Source: Clostridia bacterium
Lineage (GTDB): Bacteria > Bacillota > Clostridia > Christensenellales > Aristaeellaceae
NCBI GenBank assembly: GCA_017447185.1
Contig: JAFSOC010000014.1
Coordinates: 83,594 to 147,593, forward strand
DNA length: 64,000 nucleotides
Direction of reading: 5' to 3'
The position numbers and the translations under genes were made by a program. Shown one piece after another: positions 2,474 through 14,597 of this stretch (positions are counted from its first letter, which is position 1; the number at the start of each line of letters is the position of its first letter). A model generated the notes under the pieces. The model did no database searches. It saw nothing but the letters and a program-made list of their open reading frames with translations, and had not been told where the DNA came from.

Positions 2474-4189
2474 TCAGTCGGACTGGAGTGCGTCGTAACC
2501 TTCCTCGCCCGTCCGGACGCGGATCACGTTCTCCACATCCGTCACGAAGATCTTGCCGTCGCCAATGTGGCCGGTATGCAGCACGCTCCGTGCCGTATCG
2601 ATCACCTCGCGCACCGGCACCTTGCTTACCACGATATCCACCTGCACCTTCGGCAGCAGCGTTACCTCCACAGGGGTGCCGCGGTAATACTCCGGCTTGC
2701 CCTTCTGTGCGCCGTAACCCATGACGTTCGTAACCGTCATGCCTGTGATGCCGATCCGGTTCATCGCCGTCTTCAGGCTTTCCAGGCTGGCCGGGCGGCA
2801 GATGATCTGCACCCTGGTGTAAACCGGTTCGTCCGGAGCCTTCTCCTTCGCCTTCCGCGGCGCAGCAGGTTCCGCGGTATCCGCTGCCACAGCTGTTGCC
2901 GCGGCCGCCGGTGCTTCCCCGTCTTCGGGCATTTCTTCCGGCAGCATCGCAATGCCGGCATAAGCGGTGGGCAGGCCATGTTCAGAGCGGTCCAGACCCA
3001 TGATCTCGTCCGCTTTGTCCGCCCGCAGGCCAATGGTCTTCTTGATCAGGAAGAACACGATCGTGATCACCACAGCCGTCCAGCCGATGGTGGCCAGCAC
3101 ACCCAGGCTCTGCACGCCCAGGAATTTGAATCCGCCGCCGTAGAACACGCCCTTCATGGTGGAACGTCCGGTAGCGAAGAAGCCGGTCAGGATGGTTCCC
3201 AGCGCGCCGCACACGCCGTGTACGGAGATCGCGCCGACCGGGTCGTCAATCTTCACAACCTTGTCAAAGAAGCTGACCGACACCACAACCGCGAGGCCGC
3301 AGACGATACCAATGATTGCTGCGCCAAAGGGGTTCACGGCGTCGCACCCGGCGGTGATGCCCACCAGGCCGGCCAGCGCCGCGTTGAAGGTCATGGACAC
3401 ATCCGGCTTGCCGTACCGCATCCAGGTGAAGCCCATGCAGACCAGTGTGGCCAGTGCCGCGGCCAGGTTCGTGTTAAAGAACACCAGGCTGGCGGAATCG
3501 ATCAGTTCGTCGCTGTCCATGCCCACGGTGGAGGCGCCATTGAATCCGAACCAGCAGAACCAGAGGATGAACACGCCCAGGGCGGCGATGCTCAGGTTGT
3601 GGCCCAGGATCGCCCGGGGTTTTCCGTCCTTGCCGTACTTGCCGACGCGCGGTCCGAGCATCTTTGCGCCGACCAGTGCGCACACACCGCCGACCATGTG
3701 GACCGCCGTGGATCCGGCAAAATCATGGAATCCCATTTCCGCCAGGAAGCCGCCGCCCCAGATCCAGTGGCCGCTCACCGGGTAGATAAACAGGGAGATC
3801 GCAGCCGAGTAGATGCAGTAGGCGGAGAATTTCGTCCGCTCGGCCATGGCGCCGGAAACGATGGTCGCCGAAGTCGCGCAGAAGACTGTCTGGAAAACCG
3901 CGAAAGCCCACAGCGGAACACCCGCCGGCAGCACCGCATCATATTCCTTCATGATGAAGGGATCAATCCATCCGAAAACCGCTGTGCCCGTTCCGAACAT
4001 CAGGCCGAAACCGATCAGCCAGTACAGCGGAGTTCCGATGCAGAAGTCCATCAGGTTCTTCATCAGGATGTTGCCCGTATTCTTGGCCCGGGTAAATCCG
4101 GCTTCACACATTGCGAAGCCCGCCTGCATAAAGAAGACCAGCGCTGCGCCCAGCAGCACCCAGATTGTGTTTGCGGGAGAGTACGTCAT
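2474..4189 (-). CDS. amt: Ammonium transporter AmtB fused to a C-terminal PII (GlnK-like) domain
   Basis: Residues 1 to about 405 form an Amt/Rh ammonium channel with about 11 membrane spans. The conserved pore-histidine contexts FAGSTAVHMVGG and SVHGVCGALG are present. An Ala/Pro/Glu-rich linker (about 415-455) leads into a complete PII domain (about 458-571) with GYGAQKGKPEYYRG and GDGKIFVTDVENVIRVRTGE. PII proteins sense ATP/ADP and 2-oxoglutarate and plug the Amt pore; here sensor and channel share one chain. The T-loop position equivalent to Tyr51, the uridylylation site of E. coli GlnB/GlnK, is Val507, while Tyr46 and the QKG glutamine are kept. Control by UTase modification therefore looks impossible. 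The ATG at 4189 has GGAAG 8 bp upstream; a GTG three codons earlier is the alternative. It has its own promoter and attenuator-like leader. Confidence 0.95.
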   Translation of the reverse strand: MTYSPANTIWVLLGAALVFFMQAGFAMCEAGFTRAKNTGNILMKNLMDFCIGTPLYWLIGFGLMFGTGTAVFGWIDPFIMKEYDAVLPAGVPLWAFAVFQTVFCATSATIVSGAMAERTKFSAYCIYSAAISLFIYPVSGHWIWGGGFLAEMGFHDFAGSTAVHMVGGVCALVGAKMLGPRVGKYGKDGKPRAILGHNLSIAALGVFILWFCWFGFNGASTVGMDSDELIDSASLVFFNTNLAAALATLVCMGFTWMRYGKPDVSMTFNAALAGLVGITAGCDAVNPFGAAIIGIVCGLAVVVSVSFFDKVVKIDDPVGAISVHGVCGALGTILTGFFATGRSTMKGVFYGGGFKFLGVQSLGVLATIGWTAVVITIVFFLIKKTIGLRADKADEIMGLDRSEHGLPTAYAGIAMLPEEMPEDGEAPAAAATAVAADTAEPAAPRKAKEKAPDEPVYTRVQIICRPASLESLKTAMNRIGITGMTVTNVMGYGAQKGKPEYYRGTPVEVTLLPKVQVDIVVSKVPVREVIDTARSVLHTGHIGDGKIFVTDVENVIRVRTGEEGYDALQSD

Positions 4190-4222
4190 GTTTCTCACTT
4201 CCGTTTCCGCGTATTATCCAAC

Positions 4223-4261
4223 AAAAAAAGGCGCCGGGTGCATCTCGCACACCCTTGCGCC
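4223..4261 (-). promoter_or_regulatory. Leader attenuator hairpin of amtB
   Basis: In the amtB leader, AAGGCGC pairs with GCGCCTT around an inner GGGTG/CACCC stem, followed by seven T residues on the minus strand. This is an intrinsic terminator inside a 5' leader, about 25 nt before the amtB ribosome binding site. The transcript 5' end carries CAAGGCGCAAGGG, a box also found in the glnA and asnB leaders. Read-through must be regulated or partial for amtB to be expressed. Confidence 0.65.
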
Positions 4262-4277
4262 TTGCTGGATTGATGGG

Positions 4278-4306
4278 ATTGTATACTGTATTCAATCCCC
4301 TGTCAA
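4278..4306 (-). promoter_or_regulatory. Sigma-A type promoter for amtB
   Basis: On the minus strand TTGACA (4306-4301) and TACAAT (4283-4278) are exactly 17 bp apart. An inverted repeat GGGATTG...CAATCCC straddles the spacer and -10 element, similar in its GGGAT/ATCCC arms to the palindrome at the glnA promoter. Confidence 0.8.
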
Positions 4307-4311
4307 GGGGG

Positions 4312-4335
4312 AAAACATCCGAAAAACAATCGGAT
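4312..4335 (-). terminator. Intrinsic terminator after purC
   Basis: ATCCGA/TCGGAT stem with a T-rich loop, followed on the minus strand by GTTTTC. It lies a few bases after the purC stop and immediately before the amtB promoter, so it should end the glnA-to-purC transcript. A T-run on the plus side could also make it bidirectional. Confidence 0.6.
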
Positions 4336-4338
4336 TTT

Positions 4339-5064
4339 TTACGCCTTATCACCCATCTGTTTTTCCAGGCGTCCCATGATTTCCTGGTAAGCGTCTTCCA
4401 CGCCGCCCAGATCCCGGCGGAAGCGGTCCTTGTCCAGCTTCTCCCCAGTCTTGCTGTCCCACAGGCGGCAGGTATCCGGGCTGATTTCGTCCGCCAGGAC
4501 GATCTTCCCGTCGGAAAGGCGGCCGAATTCCAGCTTGAAGTCCACCAGTGTGACGCCGCAGGACTTCCAGAATTCCTTCAGCGCTTCATTGACCTTGAAG
4601 GAGTATTCCTTGATGGTGTCAATTTCCCCGCGGGTCGCCAGTTTCAGCGCCAGCGCGTGGTATTCATTGATCAGCGGATCGCCCAGTTCATCGTTCTTAT
4701 ACGAGAACTCGATGGTCGGCGCGTCGAAAACGATGCCTTCCTCGACCCCGTAATGCTTCGCGAAGGATCCGGCCGAAATATTGCGGATAATCACTTCCAG
4801 CGGTACAATCTGCACTTTCCGCACCAGGGTATCCCGTTCGCTGAGCTCTTCCACAAAGTGCGTGGGAACGCCCTTTGTCTCCAGCATCCGCATCAGGGCA
4901 TTGCTCATCCGGTTATTGATGACGCCCTTTCCCTGGATGGTTCCCTTTTTGAGGCCGTTGAATGCCGTCGCGTCGTCCTTGTAGGAAACGATCAGCAGTT
5001 CCGGATCCTCTGTTGCGAAGACTTTCTTGGCTTTGCCTTCGTAAAGCTGTTCACCCTTGTTCAT
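4339..5064 (-). CDS. purC: Phosphoribosylaminoimidazole-succinocarboxamide (SAICAR) synthase
   Basis: The product ligates aspartate to CAIR with ATP in de novo purine synthesis. It is 241 residues, the usual bacterial length, beginning MNKGEQLYEGKAKKVFAT (the YEGKAK nucleotide-binding strand). VPLEVIIRNISAGSFAKHYG and LVDFKLEFGRL, the family signatures, are present, as is DEISPDTCRLWD. It starts 20 bp after gltD ends and is probably the last gene of the glnA operon. Finding one purine gene at the end of a glutamine/glutamate operon is unusual but fits the glutamine demand of purine synthesis; guaA, another purine gene, lies on the other side of glnA. Confidence 0.96.
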   Translation of the reverse strand: MNKGEQLYEGKAKKVFATEDPELLIVSYKDDATAFNGLKKGTIQGKGVINNRMSNALMRMLETKGVPTHFVEELSERDTLVRKVQIVPLEVIIRNISAGSFAKHYGVEEGIVFDAPTIEFSYKNDELGDPLINEYHALALKLATRGEIDTIKEYSFKVNEALKEFWKSCGVTLVDFKLEFGRLSDGKIVLADEISPDTCRLWDSKTGEKLDKDRFRRDLGGVEDAYQEIMGRLEKQMGDKA

Positions 5065-5084
5065 GGTAAATCATCCCCTTCCGG

Positions 5085-6491
5085 TTAATGATGATTCGAC
5101 ACGAAAAGGTGAATCTCCTGCGCGGCAGCCCGGCCATCCGCCAAAGCCCGTACCACAAGGCTCTGGCCCGTGCGCATGTCGCCGGCGCTGAAAAATTTTC
5201 CGCTCAGGTGATGGGAAAGGTTTTCCGGCAGCAGCCTTCCCCGGCCGTCCGCGGACAGGCCGAAGAGCTGCAGCGTCTTTTCCTCGCAGCCGACAAAGCC
5301 GGCGGCGATCAGCATCAGCTCACACTTCAGTGTCTGCTCCGAACCCGGCACCGGCTCCATCTTTCCTTCCGGCGTCCTGTGCAGCCGGACAGTTTCCACC
5401 GCCGTAATCCGGTTCTTCTCATCCGTAAGGATCGACTTGACCGTTGTCTCATAGATCCGTGGGTCGCTTCCCTGCACCGCCTGTGCTTCCTGCTGGCCGT
5501 AATCAGTCCGCAGCGTCCGGGGCCATTCCGGCCAGGGATTCCCGGCGGTCCGGCTTTCCGGCGGCGCCGGCATCATTTCCAGCTGGGCGACAGAAGCGCA
5601 GCCCTGTCGCAGCACGGTGCCCACGCAGTCATTGCCGGTATCCCCGCCGCCGACCACCAGCACATGCTTCCCTTTCGCCAGGCAGGAATCTTCCCCGTTC
5701 AGCAGTTTTTTTGTTGTTTCCGTCAGGAAATCCACCGCGAAGCGGACGCCTTCCGCGTCCATATGCTCCACATTCAGGGACCGGGGCTTCCGGGATCCGC
5801 CGCACAGCACGACAGCGTCAAATTCCTTCAGTTCCTCCGGGTCCGCTTCCCGGTTCAAAAGAAAGGTCACGCCTTCCGCTTCCATCAGCCGGATCCGCCG
5901 CTCCACGATTTCCTTGGGCAGTTTCATATTCGGAATGCCGTACATCAGCAGTCCGCCGGGTTTTTCCGCCCGCTCAATCACGGTTACCCGGTGTCCCATC
6001 CGGTTCAGCAGGTCTGCTGCCGCCAGGCCCGAAGGGCCGCTGCCGACCACAGCAATATGCTTTCCGGTCCGCTCCGCGGGCAGCCGCGGGCGCATCCAGC
6101 CCTGTTCAAATCCTTTTTCAATCAGATACAGCTCGTTGTCCCGGTTCGTGACCCCGTCATCCGCCAGGTTGCAGGCTTTTTCGCACAGCGCAGGGCAGAT
6201 CCTTCCCGTGAATTCCGGGAAAGGCGCTGTTTCCAGCAGGCGTTCCAGCGCTTCCTTTTCCAGTCCGTTGCACAACAGGTCGTTCCATTCCGGAATCAGG
6301 TTGTGCAGCGGGCATCCGAAGGAGGACTGACAGAAGGGCACGCCGCAGTTCATGCAGCGGGAGGCCTGGCAGGTCCGCTCCTCCGCCGGCTGCTGGATAT
6401 GCAGGTCCTCATAGTCCGTAAGGCGTTCCTTCACGTCCCGGAACGGATTTTCTTTCCGGGCGTATTCCAGGAAACCGGTTGCTTTTCCCAT
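5085..6491 (-). CDS. gltD: Glutamate synthase (NADPH) small subunit
   Basis: This subunit passes electrons from NAD(P)H through FAD and two [4Fe-4S] clusters to GltB. The N-terminal domain has the cysteine groups CQASRCMNCGVPFC and CPLHNLIPEWN, then CPALCEKAC. Two dinucleotide-binding folds follow, VVGSGPSGLAAADLL (about 150) and VVGGGDTGNDCVG (about 280). Length is 468 residues, normal for the family. The ATG at 6491 has AAGGGGG 7 bp upstream and sits 2 bp past the gltB stop, so translation is probably coupled. A GTG two codons earlier would overlap the gltB stop. Confidence 0.95.
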   Translation of the reverse strand: MGKATGFLEYARKENPFRDVKERLTDYEDLHIQQPAEERTCQASRCMNCGVPFCQSSFGCPLHNLIPEWNDLLCNGLEKEALERLLETAPFPEFTGRICPALCEKACNLADDGVTNRDNELYLIEKGFEQGWMRPRLPAERTGKHIAVVGSGPSGLAAADLLNRMGHRVTVIERAEKPGGLLMYGIPNMKLPKEIVERRIRLMEAEGVTFLLNREADPEELKEFDAVVLCGGSRKPRSLNVEHMDAEGVRFAVDFLTETTKKLLNGEDSCLAKGKHVLVVGGGDTGNDCVGTVLRQGCASVAQLEMMPAPPESRTAGNPWPEWPRTLRTDYGQQEAQAVQGSDPRIYETTVKSILTDEKNRITAVETVRLHRTPEGKMEPVPGSEQTLKCELMLIAAGFVGCEEKTLQLFGLSADGRGRLLPENLSHHLSGKFFSAGDMRTGQSLVVRALADGRAAAQEIHLFVSNHH

Positions 6492-6493
6492 AT

Positions 6494-9400
6494 TCACGCC
6501 CCCTTATTCTGCAGGTACGCCAGGTATTCGTCGGAAATGACGGCCCTGAATTTCGGCAGGTACTGCGCAAAGGCAGCCAGGATTTCCCCGGCCTTTTTCG
6601 AGCCGGTTGCCTTTGCGTGCATGGTCAGCAGCCTCTCCAGGTCCGCCGCCTCTTCCGGCCGGACCGGATACATGCGCACATGACCCGTGTTCAGGTGATC
6701 CTTCAGCGTATCGTTTTCATCCAGTACCCATGCGATGCCGCCGCTCATACCGGCGGCGAAGTTGTCGCCCACCGGACCCAGCACGGCCACCCGTCCGCCT
6801 GTCATGTATTCGCAGCCGTGGTCACCCACGCCCTCTGCCACAGCCCACGCGCCGGAGTTCCGCACCGCGAAGCGTTCGCCCGCCATGCCGGCCACAAAGG
6901 CGTATCCGCCGGTGGCGCCATACAGGGCTACGTTTCCAATCAGGGTATCCTCCTGCCGCCAGATGCTGTCCGCCGGCGGGCAGACCGCCAGCGTTCCGCC
7001 GGATAGTCCCTTGCCCAGGTAGTCATTGGCCACGCCGTAGAGGGTGATCGCCTGTCCCGCGGGCAGGAACGCACCGAAGGACTGGCCGCCGCATCCCAGG
7101 GCCTGGATATTCTTTTCTCCACGGAGCATTGTGCCAAAGGCACGGTCCGTGGTCATCAGATGCACATGGTTCTGGAACAGGCGCGCGTCCGTCCGTTCCG
7201 CCAGGCGGAAGTCATGCTTCGCTTCCGGCCGGAAATGCGTGTTCCGGGCAAAGCCGGTCAGGTCGCTCAGGTCCAAGGCGGCGTCCGGTTTCACCTTCAG
7301 CAGGTCGCTGCGGCCCACCAGTTCGCCCACCGTGCGGGCACCCAGCTTCGCCATGATCTCCCGCAGCTGCTGCGCGATAAAGATCATGAAGCGTTCCACA
7401 TATTCCGGTTTCCCGGCAAACTTTTTCCGCAGTTCAGGATTCTGTGTGGCAATGCCAAAGGGGCAGGTGCCCAGGTGGCATACCCGCATCATCCGGCAGC
7501 CCATGGTGACCAGCGGCGCCGTGGCAAAGCCGAACTCTTCCGCGCCCAGCAGCAGGGCCACCGCCACATCGTGTCCCGTCATCAGTTTTCCGTCTGTTTC
7601 CAGCGTCACTGTCTGGCGCAGCCGGTTACGGCACAGCACCTGGTGAGCCTCCGCCAGGCCGATTTCCCAGGGTAGTCCCGCATGATGCACGCTGCTCAGC
7701 GGTACCGCGCCGGTTCCGCCTTCCCCGCCGGAGATCAGGATGCCGCCGGCGCCGGCTTTCGCCACGCCGCTGGCAATCGTTCCCACGCCGCTGGAAGAAA
7801 CCAGCTTGACCGTAATCTTCGCCTGTTCATTGGCGCACTGCAGGTCATAGATCAGTTCCGCCAGATCCTCGATGGAATAGATATCGTGATGCGGCGGCGG
7901 TGAAATCAGGGAAATTCCGGGGGTCGAGCAGCGCGTTTTCGCGACGCTTTCCGTCACCTTCGCACCTGGCAGGTGTCCGCCTTCACCGGGCTTGGCGCCC
8001 TGCGCCATCTTGATCTGGATTTCCTTCGCGGACAGCAGGTATTCCCGGGTCACTCCGAAGCGGCCGGAAGCCACTTGCTTGATGGCCGAGTTCAGGTCCG
8101 TGCCGAAGCGCTCCGGCAGTTCCCCGCCCTCGCCGCTGTTCGATCTTCCGCCCAGGTGGTTCATAGCCCGTGCCATGCATTCATGCGCTTCCTGGGAGAT
8201 GGAGCCGTAGCTCATCGCGCCTGTACGGAAACGCTTCACAATCGCTTCCACCGGTTCCACTTCGGAAAGCGGTATCTCCCGGCAGGCTTCATACCGGAAA
8301 TCCAGCATGGAGCGGATAGTCCGGGGACCTTCCTTCTCGATGCCGGCAGCATATTTGTCAAACAGTTCCCGGCTGTCCGTCCATACAGCCTCCTGCAGCA
8401 GGTGGATAGTCTCCGGGGAGTACAGGTGTTCCTCCGCCTGCGGACCTGTCCGCAGCCGATGTACACCCACGGCCGGCAGTCCCCTGCCTTCCGTCCTGCA
8501 GAAAGCTTCCCCGTGATGGAAACGGATGTCCGCTTCCACCCGGTTCAGGTCGGTTCCTCCCAGGGCACAGGGGGTATTGGTGAAATACTTTTCCACGAAA
8601 GGCCGATCCAGGCCTACCGCTTCAAACAGCTGCGCACTCTGGTATGCCTGCAGGGTGGAGACACCCATCTTGGAGGCAATCTTCAGCACACCGGCGGTCA
8701 GCGCCCTGTCATAACGGGCCAGAGCCTCTTCGGGTTTCAGGCTCACGGCGCCTTCCCGGCACAATTCGCGCACCCAGGCATGGGCCAGGTACGGATTGAC
8801 GGCCCGCGCGCCGAAAGCCACCAGCAATGCAAGCTGGTGCACGTCCCGGGGTTCCCCGCTTTCCAGCACCACGGAAACCGCCGTCCGCTTCTTGATCCGG
8901 ATCAGATGCTGCTCCAGCGCGGAAACCGCCAGCAGCGACGGAATGGCCAGATGATCCGCGTCCACGCCCCGGTCGGACAGGATCAGCACATTGACCCGAT
9001 CCCGGCAGGCCCGGTCGCAGGCTGCGAACAGGTCCGCCAGCGCGTCCCGCAGGGTTCCGTCCTTCGGGTACAGCAGGGATACCGTCCGGACCTTGAAGGA
9101 GGGATGATCCAGGTTCCGGATCCGCCGGAATTCCTCTTCCGCCAGCACCGGCGTGGGCAGTTCCAGCACCGTGCAGTTTTCGGGATCGTGGGAAAGCAGG
9201 TTCCCGTCATCTCCGATATACACGGAGCAGTCCGTCTTGATTTCTTCCCGCAGCGCGTCAATCGGCGGGTTGGTCACCTGGGCAAAGCGCTGCTTGAAGT
9301 AGTCAAACAGGGAGGGATGCGTTTTGGACAGGGCCGCCAACGGCTCGTCCGCGCCCATGGACACGATCGGTTCTGTTCCGTTCTCCGCCATCGGCCGCAG

Positions 9401-10822
9401 GATATCCTGCACATCTTCCCATGTATAATGAAAGGCTTTGGCCAGCTGTTTCAGCCGGTCTTCATCCACGGTCTCCGTTTCTTCCGGAGCACCCGGCAGG
9501 TCCCCTAGCCGGATCAGGTTCTGCATCCATTCCGTATAGGGGAACGCATGGGCATAGCGGGTTTTCACCTCGCTGCTTTCGGACAGCCGTCCGGTCTCCA
9601 GGTCCGCCTCCAGCACATCGCCGGATTTCAGCTTCCACCGGCGGATAATATGCGCGTTTTCCTCGAACAGGACGCCGGCTTCCGACGAAAGAATCAGCCG
9701 GTGATCGTCCGTCAGCGCGCAGCGCAGCGGCCGCAATCCGTTCCGGTCCAGGGAAGCGCAGATCTTCTCCCCATCCGTATAGAGCACCGCCGCCGGCCCG
9801 TCCCAAGGTTCCATCATCGTAGCATAATAACGGTACAGATCCCGCCAGGGCGTCTCCCGCTCCCGGATCCCCTGCCAGGGTTCCGGCATCAGGATCATGC
9901 CGGCCAGGGACAGCGGAATGCCGTTCATCGTCAGGAACTCCAGCGTGTTGTCCAGCATCTGGCTGTCGCTGCCACCTTCCGCCACCACCGGAAGCACCCG
10001 CTGCATCTCCTCGCCCATCACGGCAGAGCGCATGGTTTCCTCCCGGGCCTTCATCCGGTCGTGGTTGCCGCGGATCGTATTGATTTCCCCGTTGTGAAGC
10101 AGCATCCGCTGGGGATGTGCCTTGCTCCAGGAGGGGAAAGTATTGGTGGAGAAACGGGAATGGACCATGGCCATCCGGCTCACATACCGCGCGTCCTGCA
10201 GGTCGTCATAGAAGGACCGCAGCTGGTTTACCAGCATCATGCCCTTATAAACAATCGTACGGCAGGAAAGCGAACAGATATAGGTATCCGTATCCTGCTT
10301 TTCAAAAACGCGGCGCAGCACATACAGCCGCCGGTCAAAATCCTGGCCGGCGCTGACATTCCCGGGACGGCGCAGGAAACACTGGCGGATCCGCGGCATC
10401 GTGCTGCGGGCGCCGGCGCCCAGCTGCGCCGGATGGCAGGGAACATTCCGCCATCCCAGGATTTCGATCCGCTCGGAGGCAGCCAGCTGTTCGAAAATCC
10501 GGCAGGTGTTTTCGGCGCTGACTTCATCTTCCGGCAAAAAAAACATCCCCACGCCGTAGTCTCCCGGCCGGCCAAGCTGGATTCCTTCCTCCAGGGCCCA
10601 GGCGGAAAAAAGGCTGTGGGGCAGTTCTGTCAGTATTCCGACCCCGTCGCCGGTCGTGCCAAGCGCGTCGCTCCCGGCCCGGTGGGCCAGGCGCTCCACA
10701 ATGGAAAGCGCCTGGTCGACCGTCCGGTGTGTGGCGCGGCCGTTCAGGTCCGCAACCGCACCGACGCCGCAGTTTTCATGTTCCAGTTCCTCATGATAAA
10801 GGGGATATCTGCGGTCCTGCAT
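6494..10822 (-). CDS. gltB: Glutamate synthase large subunit
   Basis: GltB hydrolyses glutamine, channels ammonia and reductively aminates 2-oxoglutarate to give two glutamates. Residues 1-17 form a short propeptide before Cys18 (ENCGVGAV), the class II amidotransferase nucleophile. The domains that follow are the amidotransferase (18 to about 400), a central domain, the FMN-binding synthase domain (about 770-1150) and the C-terminal glutamine-rich beta-helix (GXGXG, about 1200-1400). The [3Fe-4S] ligands Cys1109, Cys1115 and Cys1120 lie in RVCHLGTCPFG. The length of 1,442 residues is slightly shorter than the usual 1,480-1,520. It follows the ANTAR gene by 3 bp and precedes gltD by 2 bp, so the three are tightly coupled. 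Confidence 0.97.
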   Translation of the reverse strand: MQDRRYPLYHEELEHENCGVGAVADLNGRATHRTVDQALSIVERLAHRAGSDALGTTGDGVGILTELPHSLFSAWALEEGIQLGRPGDYGVGMFFLPEDEVSAENTCRIFEQLAASERIEILGWRNVPCHPAQLGAGARSTMPRIRQCFLRRPGNVSAGQDFDRRLYVLRRVFEKQDTDTYICSLSCRTIVYKGMMLVNQLRSFYDDLQDARYVSRMAMVHSRFSTNTFPSWSKAHPQRMLLHNGEINTIRGNHDRMKAREETMRSAVMGEEMQRVLPVVAEGGSDSQMLDNTLEFLTMNGIPLSLAGMILMPEPWQGIRERETPWRDLYRYYATMMEPWDGPAAVLYTDGEKICASLDRNGLRPLRCALTDDHRLILSSEAGVLFEENAHIIRRWKLKSGDVLEADLETGRLSESSEVKTRYAHAFPYTEWMQNLIRLGDLPGAPEETETVDEDRLKQLAKAFHYTWEDVQDILRPMAENGTEPIVSMGADEPLAALSKTHPSLFDYFKQRFAQVTNPPIDALREEIKTDCSVYIGDDGNLLSHDPENCTVLELPTPVLAEEEFRRIRNLDHPSFKVRTVSLLYPKDGTLRDALADLFAACDRACRDRVNVLILSDRGVDADHLAIPSLLAVSALEQHLIRIKKRTAVSVVLESGEPRDVHQLALLVAFGARAVNPYLAHAWVRELCREGAVSLKPEEALARYDRALTAGVLKIASKMGVSTLQAYQSAQLFEAVGLDRPFVEKYFTNTPCALGGTDLNRVEADIRFHHGEAFCRTEGRGLPAVGVHRLRTGPQAEEHLYSPETIHLLQEAVWTDSRELFDKYAAGIEKEGPRTIRSMLDFRYEACREIPLSEVEPVEAIVKRFRTGAMSYGSISQEAHECMARAMNHLGGRSNSGEGGELPERFGTDLNSAIKQVASGRFGVTREYLLSAKEIQIKMAQGAKPGEGGHLPGAKVTESVAKTRCSTPGISLISPPPHHDIYSIEDLAELIYDLQCANEQAKITVKLVSSSGVGTIASGVAKAGAGGILISGGEGGTGAVPLSSVHHAGLPWEIGLAEAHQVLCRNRLRQTVTLETDGKLMTGHDVAVALLLGAEEFGFATAPLVTMGCRMMRVCHLGTCPFGIATQNPELRKKFAGKPEYVERFMIFIAQQLREIMAKLGARTVGELVGRSDLLKVKPDAALDLSDLTGFARNTHFRPEAKHDFRLAERTDARLFQNHVHLMTTDRAFGTMLRGEKNIQALGCGGQSFGAFLPAGQAITLYGVANDYLGKGLSGGTLAVCPPADSIWRQEDTLIGNVALYGATGGYAFVAGMAGERFAVRNSGAWAVAEGVGDHGCEYMTGGRVAVLGPVGDNFAAGMSGGIAWVLDENDTLKDHLNTGHVRMYPVRPEEAADLERLLTMHAKATGSKKAGEILAAFAQYLPKFRAVISDEYLAYLQNKGA

Positions 10823-10825
10823 TTT

Positions 10826-11362
10826 TCATCCCTGCTTTTTACTGTTTTGTTGCACAATCCTGGCAGCATAATCCGCCATCTTCGTACTGTGATCCATGGC
10901 CTGCTTCTGCAGCAGGTGATGCGCCTCCGGTTCTGTAATATGCAGCTGTTTCATCAGGATTTCCTTTGCCTGCTCCACAATCTGCCTTTCCGCTCCCATC
11001 CGTTTCGGCATTTTCATCCGGTGCAGCTGGTTCAGCATTTCCAGCGCGCCGAGAATCGCCTGTCCGCTCGTAGGCAGCGCCAGCCGGAAAATCTCGGAGG
11101 ATTCGCAGCTCTCGAGAACTGCCGGCCTGGCAATCAGCAGGATCTGCACCCTGTCTCCGTAATCCCATACCAGATCATCCGGACTGCAGTCCGGCAGCTG
11201 GCCCAGGAAAATGACAATACTGTCTTCACTTTCCGTGAGGGCACGCCGCAGGCTGCTTCCGGAGGAACAGCACCGGTACACGGAAGAACCGGAGGAGGCC
11301 AGCAGCCTGGTCATCTGATCCCGGTTCGTTTCCGAAGCGCCGGCAATGATCATTCGAGCCAC
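10826..11362 (-). CDS. ANTAR-domain RNA-binding regulator
   Basis: A 178-residue protein whose C-terminus (about 115-172, from ERQIVEQAKEILMKQLHITE to the final helix) matches the ANTAR three-helix fold that binds nascent RNA and prevents transcription termination. The N-terminal 105 residues look like a degenerate receiver domain (MIIAGASETNRDQMTRLL, VQILLIARPA), but no clear phosphoacceptor aspartate stands out, so it may be a pseudo-receiver. The GTG at 11362 is chosen because GGAGG lies 7-8 bp upstream; the ATG three codons in is too far from it. The gene sits 42 bp after glnA and 3 bp before gltB. ANTAR proteins in this setting are known to control nitrogen genes. Candidate targets are the glnA, asnB and amtB leaders described here. 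Confidence 0.85.
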   Translation of the reverse strand: MARMIIAGASETNRDQMTRLLASSGSSVYRCCSSGSSLRRALTESEDSIVIFLGQLPDCSPDDLVWDYGDRVQILLIARPAVLESCESSEIFRLALPTSGQAILGALEMLNQLHRMKMPKRMGAERQIVEQAKEILMKQLHITEPEAHHLLQKQAMDHSTKMADYAARIVQQNSKKQG

Positions 11363-11404
11363 TCGTCTTCCTCCTCTCCGTTACAGATTTGGACGCAATC
11401 CGGA

Positions 11405-12736
11405 TTAATACATCACAATGTAGCGATCAATCTCCCAGCTGCTCACATGGGTGCGGTACGCATCCCATTCCTTTTCCTTGCCTTCCACATACTGGCCCAT
11501 GACATGCTCACCCAGCGCGGCGCAGATCACGTCGTCCGCCTTCAGGCAGTCCACAGCTTCCTTCAGTGTGCCGGGCAGGGAACGGATGCCCTTGGCTTCG
11601 CGGGTCACCGCGTCCATCGCGAAGATGTTCTCGGTGATTTCTTCCGGAGGCGTGAGGCCCTTCTTAATGCCATCCAGACCGGCAGCCAGGCAGACCGCCA
11701 TGTTCAGGTACGGGTTGCAGCTGGGATCCGGGCAGCGCAGTTCAACGCGCGTTCCCATACCGCGGGATGCGGGAATACGGATGAGCGCAGAACGGTTGCT
11801 GGCACTCCAGGCCAGGTAGCAGGGCGCTTCATAGCCGGGAACCAGGCGCTTGTAGCTGTTTACCAGCGGGTTGGTTATCGCCGCCATGCCGCGAATGTGC
11901 TCCAGGATGCCGGCGATGAAGGAATAGGCTTCCTTGCTCAGTCCGCGCTTGTCGGAAGGATCGGCAAACACATTCTTGCCGTCCTTGAACAGGCTCATAT
12001 TGGTATGCATGCCGCTGCCGTTGATTCCGAAAACGGGCTTGGGCATGAAGGTCGCATGCAGGCCGTTCTTCTGGGCCAGCGTTTTCACTGCCAGTTTGAA
12101 GGTCATGATGTTGTCCGCTGCCTTCAGCGCATCGGCATACTTGAAGTCGATCTCGTGCTGGCCGGCTGCCACTTCATGATGGCTGGCTTCAATTTCAAAG
12201 CCCATCTGCTCCAGTGCCAGGCAGATCTCACGCCGGGTGCTTTCGCCGTGATCCAGCGGTCCAAGGTCGAAGTATCCGGCTTCGTCCGAGGTCGCGGTGG
12301 TGGGCTTGCCCTCTTCATCCGTCTGGAAGAGGAAGAATTCCATTTCCGGACCGACGTTGAAGGAATATCCCATCTCCGCCGCTTCCGCCAGCACCTTCTT
12401 CAGCACGCCGCGGGGATCGCCGGCAAAGGGCGTTCCGTCCGGATTGTATACGTCGCAGATCAGCCGGGCGACTTTCCCGTGCTGCGGACGCCAGGGCAGA
12501 ATCGTGAAGGTGTCCAGGTCGGGCCGCAGGTACTGGTCGCTCTCATTGATGCGGACGAAGCCCTCGATGGAACTGCCGTCGATCATGATCTCATTGTTGA
12601 CCGCCTTTTCAATCTGGCTGGCAGTGATGGCCACATTCTTCAGCTGACCGAAAATATCGGTGAACTGCATGCGGATAAATTCCACATCACCTTCCCGGAC
12701 CATGCGGATGATATCTTCCTTCGTGAATCTGCTCAT
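11405..12736 (-). CDS. glnA: Glutamine synthetase, type I
   Basis: Glutamine synthetase joins ammonia and glutamate with ATP. The 443-residue length and the absence of the adenylylation loop of GSI-beta enzymes place it with the GSI-alpha type of Firmicutes. Beta-grasp region ([15 protein letters not shown]), DGSSIEGF near 53, the metal-ligand stretch [31 protein letters not shown] and NRSALIRIP are all present. Start ATG at 12736 has GAGGAGG 9 bp upstream. It is the first gene of the nitrogen operon and is preceded by a consensus promoter with a 20-bp palindrome and a leader terminator hairpin. Confidence 0.97.
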
Positions 12737-12756
12737 AACAACAACCTCCTCAAATC

Positions 12757-12798
12757 AAAAACAGGCAAGTTCAGCCATCGGATCATGGCTCCCTTGCC
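12757..12798 (-). promoter_or_regulatory. Leader attenuator hairpin of glnA
   Basis: On the minus strand GGCAAG pairs with CTTGCC and an inner AGCCAT pairs with ATGGCT (loop GATCCG), followed by TGTTTTTG. The hairpin starts close to the predicted transcript 5' end and finishes just before the GAGGAGG ribosome binding site, so it can only act as a leader terminator or a translation-linked structure. The 5' arm lies in the box CAAGGCAAGGGAG shared with amtB and asnB leaders. Confidence 0.65.
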
Positions 12799-12805
12799 TT
12801 GTATG

Positions 12806-12825
12806 CCGGGATCATACCATCCCGG
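12806..12825. promoter_or_regulatory. Palindromic operator candidate over the glnA -10 element
   Basis: A perfect 7-6-7 inverted repeat, CCGGGAT-N6-ATCCCGG, spans the -10 hexamer of the glnA promoter. A related half, CCGGGATGATACCAT, covers the -10 element of the divergent asnB promoter about 100 bp away. A repressor binding here would block RNA polymerase; the protein is not identified in this window. Confidence 0.55.
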
Positions 12826-12839
12826 TTTTCGCCTGTCAA
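12811..12839 (-). promoter_or_regulatory. Sigma-A type promoter for glnA
   Basis: TTGACA (12839-12834) and TATGAT (12816-12811) are 17 bp apart on the minus strand. The expected start site is about 7 nt after the -10 element, giving a leader of roughly 65-70 nt. Confidence 0.85.
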
Positions 12840-12903
12840 GCGTTTTGGACCGGCTGAAATTGTTTTCCCTTTGTTTTCCCCTTCCCGCTTTTCCGTGATC
12901 TCC

Positions 12904-12932
12904 TTGACAAGCCTTTCCCGGGATGATACCAT
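12904..12932 (+). promoter_or_regulatory. Sigma-A type promoter for asnB
   Basis: TTGACA (12904-12909) and TACCAT (12927-12932) with 17 bp between them. The spacer and -10 contain CCGGGATGATACCAT, which resembles one arm of the glnA palindrome plus its -10 element. It is divergent from the glnA promoter, with the two -35 elements about 65 bp apart. Confidence 0.75.
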
Positions 12933-12940
12933 ACCTGCCA

Positions 12941-12999
12941 TCAAGACAAGGGAGTCCTGAAATGGGGCTTCCTGTTTTTTTGTTCCTTCCCCATTTCAG
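12941..12999 (+). promoter_or_regulatory. asnB leader with mutually exclusive terminator and antiterminator
   Basis: The terminator is GGGAGTCC (12950-12957) paired with GGGCTTCC (12965-12972), followed by seven T residues (12975-12981). The antiterminator is CTGAAATGGGG (12957-12967), which is perfectly complementary over 11 bp to CCCCATTTCAG (12989-12999); it uses up the 3' arm of the terminator and loops out the T-run. The ribosome binding site follows at about 13002. The leader begins with CAAGACAAGGGAG, the box shared with glnA and amtB. This is the layout of an RNA switch; what selects between the folds is unknown, the ANTAR protein being the nearest candidate. Confidence 0.7.
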
Positions 13000-13016
13000 T
13001 TCAGGAGGCGATCCGT

Positions 13017-14597
13017 ATGTGTTCCATCTTCGGTCTGACCAGTTCCAGAGTTCCCCGGGATCTGATTGAAACCTGCTTCAACCGCACGATCTCGCGGGGA
13101 CCGGACATGAGCCGGCTGGAAGAGATCCCCGACGGGATTCTCGGTTTCCATCGCCTGGCCATCATGGGCCTGAATGAAAAGGGCATGCAGCCCTTCCATC
13201 TCGGGAAGGACGCGGTCGTCTGCAATGGTGAACTGTACGGTTTCCGTCCCCTGCGGGAGCGGCTCATGGAGACCTATGAGCTGCAGGGGGAATCCGACTG
13301 TGAAATTCTTCTTCCCCTGTATCATGAATACGGAGTGGAAATGTTCAAAACCCTGGACGCCGAGTTTGCCCTGATCCTCTATGACGGTGAGCAGAACAAA
13401 GTCATCGCCGCCCGGGATCCCATCGGTATCCGGCCTCTGTATTACGGCCGCCTGGAAGACGGAGAATGGGCCTTCGCCAGCGAACCGAAGAACCTGATGG
13501 GCCTGTGCGAAACCATCCTGCCCTTCCCGCCCGGCCATTACTGGGTCGACGGGAAATTCATCCCCTATGCCGATCCCTCCCATGTGGACCGGTTTATTAT
13601 GGAAAACGAGGACGTGGTCTGCAGGGAACTGAACCGCCTGCTGACCGAGGGCGTGAAAAAGCGGCTGGACGCGGATGCCCCCATCGGCTTCCTGCTCTCC
13701 GGCGGCCTGGATTCCTCCCTCGTGTGCGCCATCGCCCAGAAACTGCTCCCCCATCCGATCCGAACCTTCGCCATCGGCATGGATATTGACGCCATCGACC
13801 TGAAATACGCCCGCATCGTCGCGGATTATATCGGTTCGGAGCATACTGAGGTCATCATCTCCGAAAAGGACGTGCTGGAGGCCCTGCCCACCGTCGTGGA
13901 GCTGCTGGGCACCTGGGATATCACAACCATCCGCGCCTCCATCGGCATGTATCTCGTCTGCAAATGGATCCATGAAAACACCGACGTACGCGTTCTGCTC
14001 ACCGGCGAAATTTCCGACGAACTCTTCGGATATAAATACACGGACTTTGCCCCCTCTGCCGCCGCCTTCCAGGAAGAAGCGGAAAAGCGGATCCGGGAGC
14101 TGCATGTTTACGACGTGCTGCGGGCGGACCGCTGCATTTCCGTCAACTCCCTGGAAGCACGCGTGCCCTTCGGTGACCTGGCCTTCGTGCACCATGCCAT
14201 GAAGATTGACCCGGAGCTGAAGATGAACAACCACAACATGGGCAAATACCTGATCCGCAAAGCCTTCGCGGAGGACAAAATCCTGCCGGATGAAATTCTC
14301 TGGCGGCAGAAGGCTGCTTTCTCCGACGCCGTGGGTCACTCCATGGTCAACGACCTGAAGGCCCTGGCGGAGAGAACCTATACCGACAAGGAATTTGAGG
14401 AAAAAGCAGCGAAATATGATTACTGCCCTCCCTTCACCAAGGAGAGCCTGCTGTACCGTGAACTGTTCGAACAGTATTATCCCGGCCAGGCCCGCATGAT
14501 TCCGGACTACTGGATGCCCAACAGAACCTGGCCCGGCTGCAATGTGGACGATCCTTCCGCCCGGGTGCTTTCGAACTACGGGGACAGCGGAAAATAA
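13017..14597 (+). CDS. asnB: Asparagine synthase (glutamine-hydrolysing)
   Basis: The protein makes asparagine from aspartate, glutamine and ATP. MCSIFGL places the amidotransferase nucleophile at Cys2, and VVCNGELYG and [13 protein letters not shown] are class II amidotransferase motifs. The synthetase domain carries the PP-loop SGGLDSS near residue 230, then [13 protein letters not shown] and LEARVPF, the AsnB signatures. At 526 residues it is close to E. coli AsnB (554). GGAGG lies 8 bp before the ATG. Its regulated leader and its place opposite glnA suggest control by nitrogen or glutamine supply. guaA follows after 19 bp, so both are probably on one transcript. Confidence 0.95.

Follow-up and report, generated by a model that had tools for sequence, protein, structure and literature searches.

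Nitrogen-gene leaders with a single hexaloop as probable ANTAR-read transcription attenuators in a genus of Clostridia

Introduction

The described RNA targets of ANTAR proteins consist of two hexaloop hairpins joined by a short linker, the second of which overlaps a transcription terminator (PMC3369931). As set out in the same account, the loops carry A at position 1 (A1) and G at position 4 (G4) on a stem of at least 3 base pairs (bp); a C:G pair closes the hexaloop (PMC7496416). EutV binding to the P1 or P2 hairpin alone does not differ significantly from its binding to the pair, and the degree to which single hexaloops act in ANTAR function is the question on which the 2022 EutV-RNA structure paper closes (PMC8934654). 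Here, we analyse the leaders of three nitrogen-assimilation genes, amtB, glnA and asnB, in a 64 kb stretch of a Clostridia genome (contig JAFSOC010000014.1; hereafter the window). Each leader has one such hexaloop hairpin, which overlaps a terminator, and an ANTAR protein is encoded next to glnA.

NitR of Clostridium saccharobutylicum provides a precedent at the level of gene order and target: its ANTAR gene adjoins glnA, and it acts by antitermination of glnA. The dual-hexaloop targets described to date, which include the eut targets of Enterococcus faecalis, nasF, amiE and predicted nitrogen regulons, resemble the leaders studied here in their A1/G4 hexaloop and short stem, in the placement of a hairpin within the 5′ arm of a terminator and in the presence of an ANTAR protein (PMC3369931). 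Nitrogen genes are common to both as well, among them genes for ammonium transporters, glutamine synthase and glutamate synthase; in contrast to those targets, the present leaders have one hairpin, which lies within a few bases of the predicted 5′ end of the RNA. With the single-hexaloop motif of the EutV-RNA structure they share one hexaloop as the bound unit (PMC8934654). The RAT antiterminators of the Sac/Bgl type (PMC3369931) likewise rely on one hairpin that overlaps a terminator and is incompatible with it, but represent a different RNA element and protein family. No single-hexaloop attenuator is reported in the titles and abstract openings of the ANTAR papers retrieved on hexaloops, on single stem-loops and on ammonium transporters with terminators, and we regard a single loop, where the published switch has two, as new.

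Results

A strong sigma-70-type promoter match precedes each of the three leaders. The amtB promoter (4278..4306, minus strand) comprises TTGACA, a 17 nucleotide (nt) spacer and TACAAT, with 11/12 matches to consensus; that of glnA (12811..12839, minus strand) has TTGACA, 17 nt and TATGAT (11/12), and that of asnB (12904..12932, plus strand) TTGACA, 17 nt and TACCAT (10/12). The leaders themselves, delimited by folding, span 4223-4274 (amtB, minus), 12753-12804 (glnA, minus) and 12940-12985 (asnB, plus). An earlier inspection of the letters alone (the sequence-only reading) had noted a similar box behind all three promoters, and both boxes and promoters were found at the positions it gave. It had also proposed that the box belongs to, or adjoins, the 5′ arm of a terminator with a tail of five to seven T residues, and all three leaders fold as hairpins with such tails: amtB at 4223..4263 (minus; T7 run; -22.2 kcal/mol), glnA at 12757..12799 (minus; T5 run; -21.2 kcal/mol) and asnB at 12943..12981 (plus; T7 run; -17.7 kcal/mol). 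A strict terminator scan flagged the asnB hairpin alone among the three, the glnA and amtB stems having internal loops. The suggestion that the T-run lies directly before the ribosome binding site holds for glnA, but not for amtB or asnB, where around 20 nt intervene.

The sequence-only reading saw no hexaloops in these leaders, a point that we revise, since the box itself is a hexaloop hairpin. It folds as stem-C[AARGGN]G-stem in every leader class, the loop having A1 and G4 and being closed by a C:G pair, as in published ANTAR targets. In the window, pattern scanning and folding place the hairpins at 4247..4260 (amtB, minus; GCGC[AAGGGT]GTGC), within the 5′ arm of the terminator, at 12787..12798 (glnA, minus; GGC[AAGGGA]GCC) and at 12945..12956 (asnB, plus; GAC[AAGGGA]GTC). 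The middle pair of the stem is A-U in asnB and G-C in glnA, and covariation further supports both of these hairpins. A fourth leader of the same genome, upstream of purF (see below), has the hairpin GGAC[AAGGGA]GTCC.

Folded freely, all four leaders of this genome adopt the terminator as their best structure (-17.7 to -22.2 kcal/mol), whereas the best fold with the hexaloop enforced reaches only -7.8 to -8.9 kcal/mol. The hexaloop hairpin occupies the 5′ arm of the terminator, and the two folds therefore exclude each other. As the hexaloop is transcribed first and is weak alone, it would need a partner to prevail, which is the logic of an antiterminator. In the mechanism that we propose, RNA polymerase would initiate a few bases before the box, at start sites predicted from the promoters, and the small stem-C[AARGGN]G-stem hairpin would be the first structure available to the nascent RNA. 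If nothing holds this hairpin, the box would pair with its distal complement to form the terminator, and transcription would stop before the gene; if an active ANTAR protein were bound to the hexaloop, the 5′ arm would be held, no terminator would form and the gene would be transcribed. One protein could in this way control glnA, amtB, asnB and purF here, and glmS, gltB/gltD, pyrG and dapL in relatives. We consider that the leaders are probably transcription attenuators of a single-hexaloop form, read by the resident ANTAR protein. The computation establishes the hairpin and its covariation, its incompatibility with the terminator, the set of genes and the ANTAR gene. ANTAR binding, the direction of control, the signal and the start sites are what we infer from these data, binding being equated with read-through because the folds are mutually exclusive.

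When the glnA/asnB intergenic region was searched as DNA, 31 of 61 genomes matched (the source genome included), all belonging to one genus, and a protein search with the ANTAR protein returned 18 loci, 11 of them from close relatives (recorded as Clostridia assemblies, several of which come from the gut of sheep or goats). Leaders in the relatives carry CAAGGCAAGGG at the same position behind the promoter, with CAAGGCGCAAGGG in its place in the amtB class. The box is conserved among relatives, whereas the terminator varies in its inner stem, its loop and its 3′ arm. We built a model, R1, from 32 leaders; it is a sequence-only model because RNAalifold found no pairs in the raw alignment, a result attributed to misaligned 3′ arms. 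At E ≤0.1 per genome, R1 matched 97 places in 41 of 45 genomes of the genus, excluding a lack of conservation in close relatives; at this threshold around 4-5 chance matches are expected over 45 genomes, and five matches fall under "other". The source genome accounts for four, at amtB, glnA, asnB and purF, the last being weak (E 0.016), with the downstream protein identified as PurF by NCBIfam.

Genes for glutamine, ammonium, glutamate or amino transfer follow 87 of the 97 matches. The largest classes are dapL (22, alone or followed by asnB/guaA), glnA (16), asnB (15), amtB (13) and glmS (11), with the remainder divided between purF (4), gltB/gltD (4), pyrG (2), a PEP-synthase-like gene (3), others (5) and reverse-strand echoes (2); labels for the purF, dapL, pyrG, PEP-synthase-like, other and echo cases were assigned by hand. 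The sequence-only reading had named hits confined to nitrogen genes, with covarying stems, as what would support one leader design common to several nitrogen transcripts; such a design is conserved in the genus, has covarying stems and occurs almost exclusively at nitrogen genes. R1 overlooks some leaders, for example that of glnA in locus L021. Among nine extra glnA leaders, the hairpin is unchanged in eight, and in the ninth (L015) the third pair is broken. The PEP-synthase-like cases (L126, L097 and L129) are leaders 5′ of a gene with weak similarity to PEP synthase (43.7 bits, against a cut-off of 883).

Ordinary terminators that look alike by common descent and regulate nothing might be considered, as the glnA and asnB leaders lie around 150 nt apart in inverted orientation and one might be a copy of the other. 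However, the box persists while the rest of the terminator diverges, and does so across several scattered genes, which makes this explanation scarcely credible.

The three inner pairs of the hairpin form in 80, 81 and 81 of the 81 distinct R1 hits, the single failure being a reverse-strand echo. Once the hits are collapsed to 44 distinct 18-mers, all 132 cells of the 3-bp stem are paired (44/44 sequences): the outer pair is GC in 34, CG in seven and GU in three, the middle pair GU in 24, GC in 17 and AU in three, and the closing pair CG in all 44. None of 500 shuffles attained the paired fraction or the covariation score of this stem. Versions of the stem slid out of register were 31.8-51.5% paired, and a 6-bp version 77.3%, its fourth pair usually being mismatched. 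In the amtB class a GC insertion in the hairpin preserves pairing. G4 is present in 90/90 and A1 in 89/90 leader hits, including rows read by eye, although in 81 rows the search pattern itself fixed most loop letters, A1 and G4 among them. Twelve of the 97 hits fell outside the pattern and were read by eye, nine proving to be leaders, and four duplicates were dropped. The stem is intact in all nine off-pattern leaders, which include two at glmS with the loop AATGGG and one at dapL with GAGGGA. Set A3 excludes rows 71, 89 and 95 of the 81, and set A2 omits the relatives L043 and L046.

Outside the genus, an ANTAR domain was found in 112 of 248 genomes of the order. R1 run over these 248 matched four members of the genus and four other genomes. 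Of five non-genus loci viewed (L148-L151 and L155), L148 is clearly a leader of the single-hexaloop kind, with different letters in its stem; the hairpins at L150 and L155 are short and do not show the leader design, and L149 and L151 have no hairpin by the pattern used. R1 matched none of 14 genomes of the same family outside the genus; as the three of these that bear ANTAR are also without a match, this absence is uninformative on co-occurrence. Upstream of amtB in other families of the order, similar units with other stem letters were present in 27 of the 56 regions that came from genomes with ANTAR (shuffles averaged 1.03 and reached at most 4; the opposite strand gave 2/56); the amtB set comprised 60 regions from 69 amtB genomes, some genomes giving two or three. 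Tandem pairs of complete single-hexaloop attenuators were observed 5′ of amtB in other families (L253, L254, L272, L275 and L290). Co-occurrence of this amtB type with an ANTAR gene is strong (65/69 amtB genomes, compared with 112/248 overall), a figure uncorrected for descent.

The glnA set of the order is less clear. When terminator pairing was required, units preceded 8 of 40 ANTAR-adjacent glnA genes (opposite strand 5/40, shuffles 1.17) and none of 20 others; a hairpin plus T-run was found at 11/40 ANTAR-adjacent genes with stems of at least 3 bp and at 4/40 with at least 4 bp, again with 0/20 others. At least three of these units (L194, L210 and L223) are probably chance occurrences in coding sequence, and L207 and L216 are opposite-strand leaders.

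These data bear on the possibility that the box acts as an operator in the DNA at the start site, with an incidental terminator. The near-fixed distance of the box from the -10 element is compatible with this, as is the occurrence of other DNA motifs in the same promoters (a direct repeat at glnA and a palindrome at the amtB -10 element, described below). Compensatory changes and the pairing-preserving GC insertion fit RNA instead, and other families change the stem letters but keep the loop and its overlap with the terminator. We therefore regard an operator as very unlikely.

We then asked how many loops each leader contains. In the 81 genus leaders, a second hexaloop with stems of at least 3 bp occurs upstream in 8 (11.8 in shuffles) and downstream in 21 (17.8 in shuffles), neither being above chance; with stems of at least 4 bp there are two upstream, compared with 4.3 in shuffles. 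The stem starts 11-13 nt past the best -10 match in 62/81 leaders and 18-19 nt past it in 10/10 amtB rows, which would leave few transcribed bases ahead of the stem if the promoters are right. As a control, a similar scan of 30 ANTAR loci across the phylum gave 46 units, 15 with an upstream hexaloop partner; the labels look upstream only, and several of the 46 are chance. Clear dual motifs were recovered at L335, L334, L324, L313, L314 and L319, and candidate singles at L318, L326, L328, L331, L333 and L338, while L311 and L312 bear the single label but show a further loop downstream when read by eye.

A canonical dual-hexaloop target whose second hairpin was missed, through a start site further upstream, a non-canonical loop or a position near the ribosome site, is the alternative to which this evidence speaks. 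In its favour, downstream hexaloops with stems of at least 4 bp occur in 16/81 leaders compared with 8.2 in shuffles, an excess not fully explained; several of these sit at ribosome sites, for example CATC[AAAGGA]GATG. Of the 44 order units (amtB and glnA sets combined), eight have another hexaloop no more than 45 nt upstream, compared with 3.94 in shuffles, partly owing to the tandem attenuators of some regions. This alternative is unlikely given the upstream counts in the genus, the short distance from the -10 element to the stem and the ability of a similar scan to detect dual motifs at ANTAR loci elsewhere in the phylum. Set against the definition of the dual-hexaloop family as described (PMC3369931), the leaders have the A1/G4 hexaloop, the stem of at least 3 bp and the overlap with the terminator 5′ arm, but not the second hairpin. 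They work like ANTAR attenuators and are a single-hexaloop variant rather than members of the dual-hexaloop family, because the second hairpin, part of the published definition, is not found above chance.

The candidate reader is a 178 amino acid (aa) protein (10826..11362, minus strand) encoded between glnA and gltB, as the sequence-only reading had stated. Its ANTAR domain (PF03861, residues 124-170) scores 64.9 bits against a cut-off of 27.3 and is the only Pfam match of the protein; no receiver domain family was matched in Pfam at E ≤1. This is the sole ANTAR gene found in the source genome, the assembly of which is 88.7% complete. In the genus, 35/45 genomes have an ANTAR domain, in single copy in 33 of the 35, and all 13 high-quality genomes are among those that do. 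The four leader-negative genomes of the genus are also without ANTAR, and all four are incomplete. The protein matches the EutV, Rv1626 and NasR chains of the PDB in their ANTAR parts. EutV contacts the loop base G4 through R142, K149, E160 and Y164 (PMC8934654). We place the equivalents at R126, K133, E144 and H148, assuming a two-residue offset in chain numbering; K133, E144 and H148 are invariant in 10/10 genus proteins, and position 126 is occupied by R or K among relatives. A relative (L101, G017:C27:14999-15106) has a second, short stretch that matches ANTAR only (36 model positions in a 44-aa open frame), adjoining a leader 5′ of gltB.

Some other RNA-binding protein, or a metabolite such as glutamine, might instead read the hairpin or box. 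The gene set is centred on glutamine, and four ANTAR-negative genomes of the genus have leaders at nitrogen or PEP-synthase-like genes. On the other hand, the loop agrees letter by letter with the ANTAR rule, the ANTAR gene lies inside the regulon, Rfam (glutamine riboswitches included) gave no match at gathering scores in the window, and the conserved part seems short for a metabolite pocket. We find such a reader improbable, and the ANTAR protein likely. The sequence-only reading had entertained a new target type, or binding of another protein or a metabolite. The second hairpin is indeed missing, but the hexaloop is present and no unrelated type or metabolite need be invoked; none of the results indicates an RNA that binds a metabolite.

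By translation, the minus strand of the window encodes glmS, amtB, purC, gltD, gltB, the ANTAR gene and glnA, and the plus strand, after glnA, asnB and then guaA. Pfam was applied to the products of the ANTAR gene, amtB (2474..4198, minus), glnA (11405..12736, minus; glutamine synthetase) and asnB (13017..14597, plus; asparagine synthase with a glutamine amidotransferase domain). AmtB, an ammonium transporter, carries a P-II domain at its C terminus (PF00543, residues 461-565), a nitrogen sensor thus being joined to an ammonium channel in one fused protein.

Further features were observed at the same promoters and leaders. A direct repeat, AAACAAAGGGAAAACAAT, lies 5′ of the glnA -35 element (12859-12876, minus), with a strict pattern matched in 16/25 glnA promoters of the genus, and is possibly a DNA operator distinct from the leader. 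A near-perfect palindrome, GGGATTGAATACAGTATACAATCCC, spans the amtB -10 element (4275-4299, minus), with ATACWGTATACAAT kept in relatives, and is also a possible operator. Taken as a stand-alone DNA motif the box was rejected: its 13-mer is not enriched genome-wide, with 87 places at up to two mismatches compared with 209 for the reversed pattern. Within its leader context, as matched by R1, its recurrence far exceeds chance. In the asnB leader (12958-13002, plus), CTGAAATGGGG inside the terminator recurs as CCCCATTTCAG right before the ribosome site, and read-through RNA could form a long second hairpin; the repeat is incomplete in the relative L010. Upstream of asnB in another relative (L047, minus strand, genome G066), the box is present, the T-run after the hairpin is absent and a long-stem hexaloop, AAAGGG, covers the ribosome site, which suggests translational control.

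Discussion

Several observations weigh against attenuation by a single hexaloop under the resident ANTAR protein. As described, eut induction requires both hairpins, with weaker binding to one (PMC3369931), and both hexaloops of a pair must be contacted to block termination (PMC8934654). The latter paper suggests single sites mainly where polymerase timing is irrelevant, without a transcription time limit, whereas here the loop overlaps a terminator. The excess of long-stemmed downstream hexaloops in the genus belongs here too. At the place of EutV Tyr164, the residue stacked on G4, all 10/10 proteins of the genus have His148, a real difference. Six leader-positive genomes of the genus, mostly of low completeness, have no detected ANTAR gene, and units were found in 2/4 amtB regions of order genomes without detected ANTAR. 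Only one pair is changed on both sides (equalled by 358/500 shuffles) and there are four pair types (equalled by 344/500), neither being remarkable; independent covariation events are few because the sequences are related.

Joint control of glutamine users and makers would be consistent with a response to scarce glutamine. As to the signal, the P-II domain of AmtB is only a hint. Whether the leaders represent a second, widespread class of ANTAR target in Firmicutes, overlooked by dual-hairpin searches, is for us an evenly balanced conjecture. In this scheme the 5′-proximal loop would allow the protein to load before the terminator forms, making a second loop unneeded, and the genus would co-set the makers (glnA, gltB/gltD and amtB) and users (asnB, purF, glmS and pyrG) of glutamine.

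The leaders offer natural, short, promoter-proximal cases that overlap terminators, within one regulon and with one candidate protein, and make the single-hexaloop question directly testable. If the scheme is true, the search model for ANTAR regulons would change, and an anaerobic gut lineage would tune both the supply and the use of glutamine through one RNA-binding protein.

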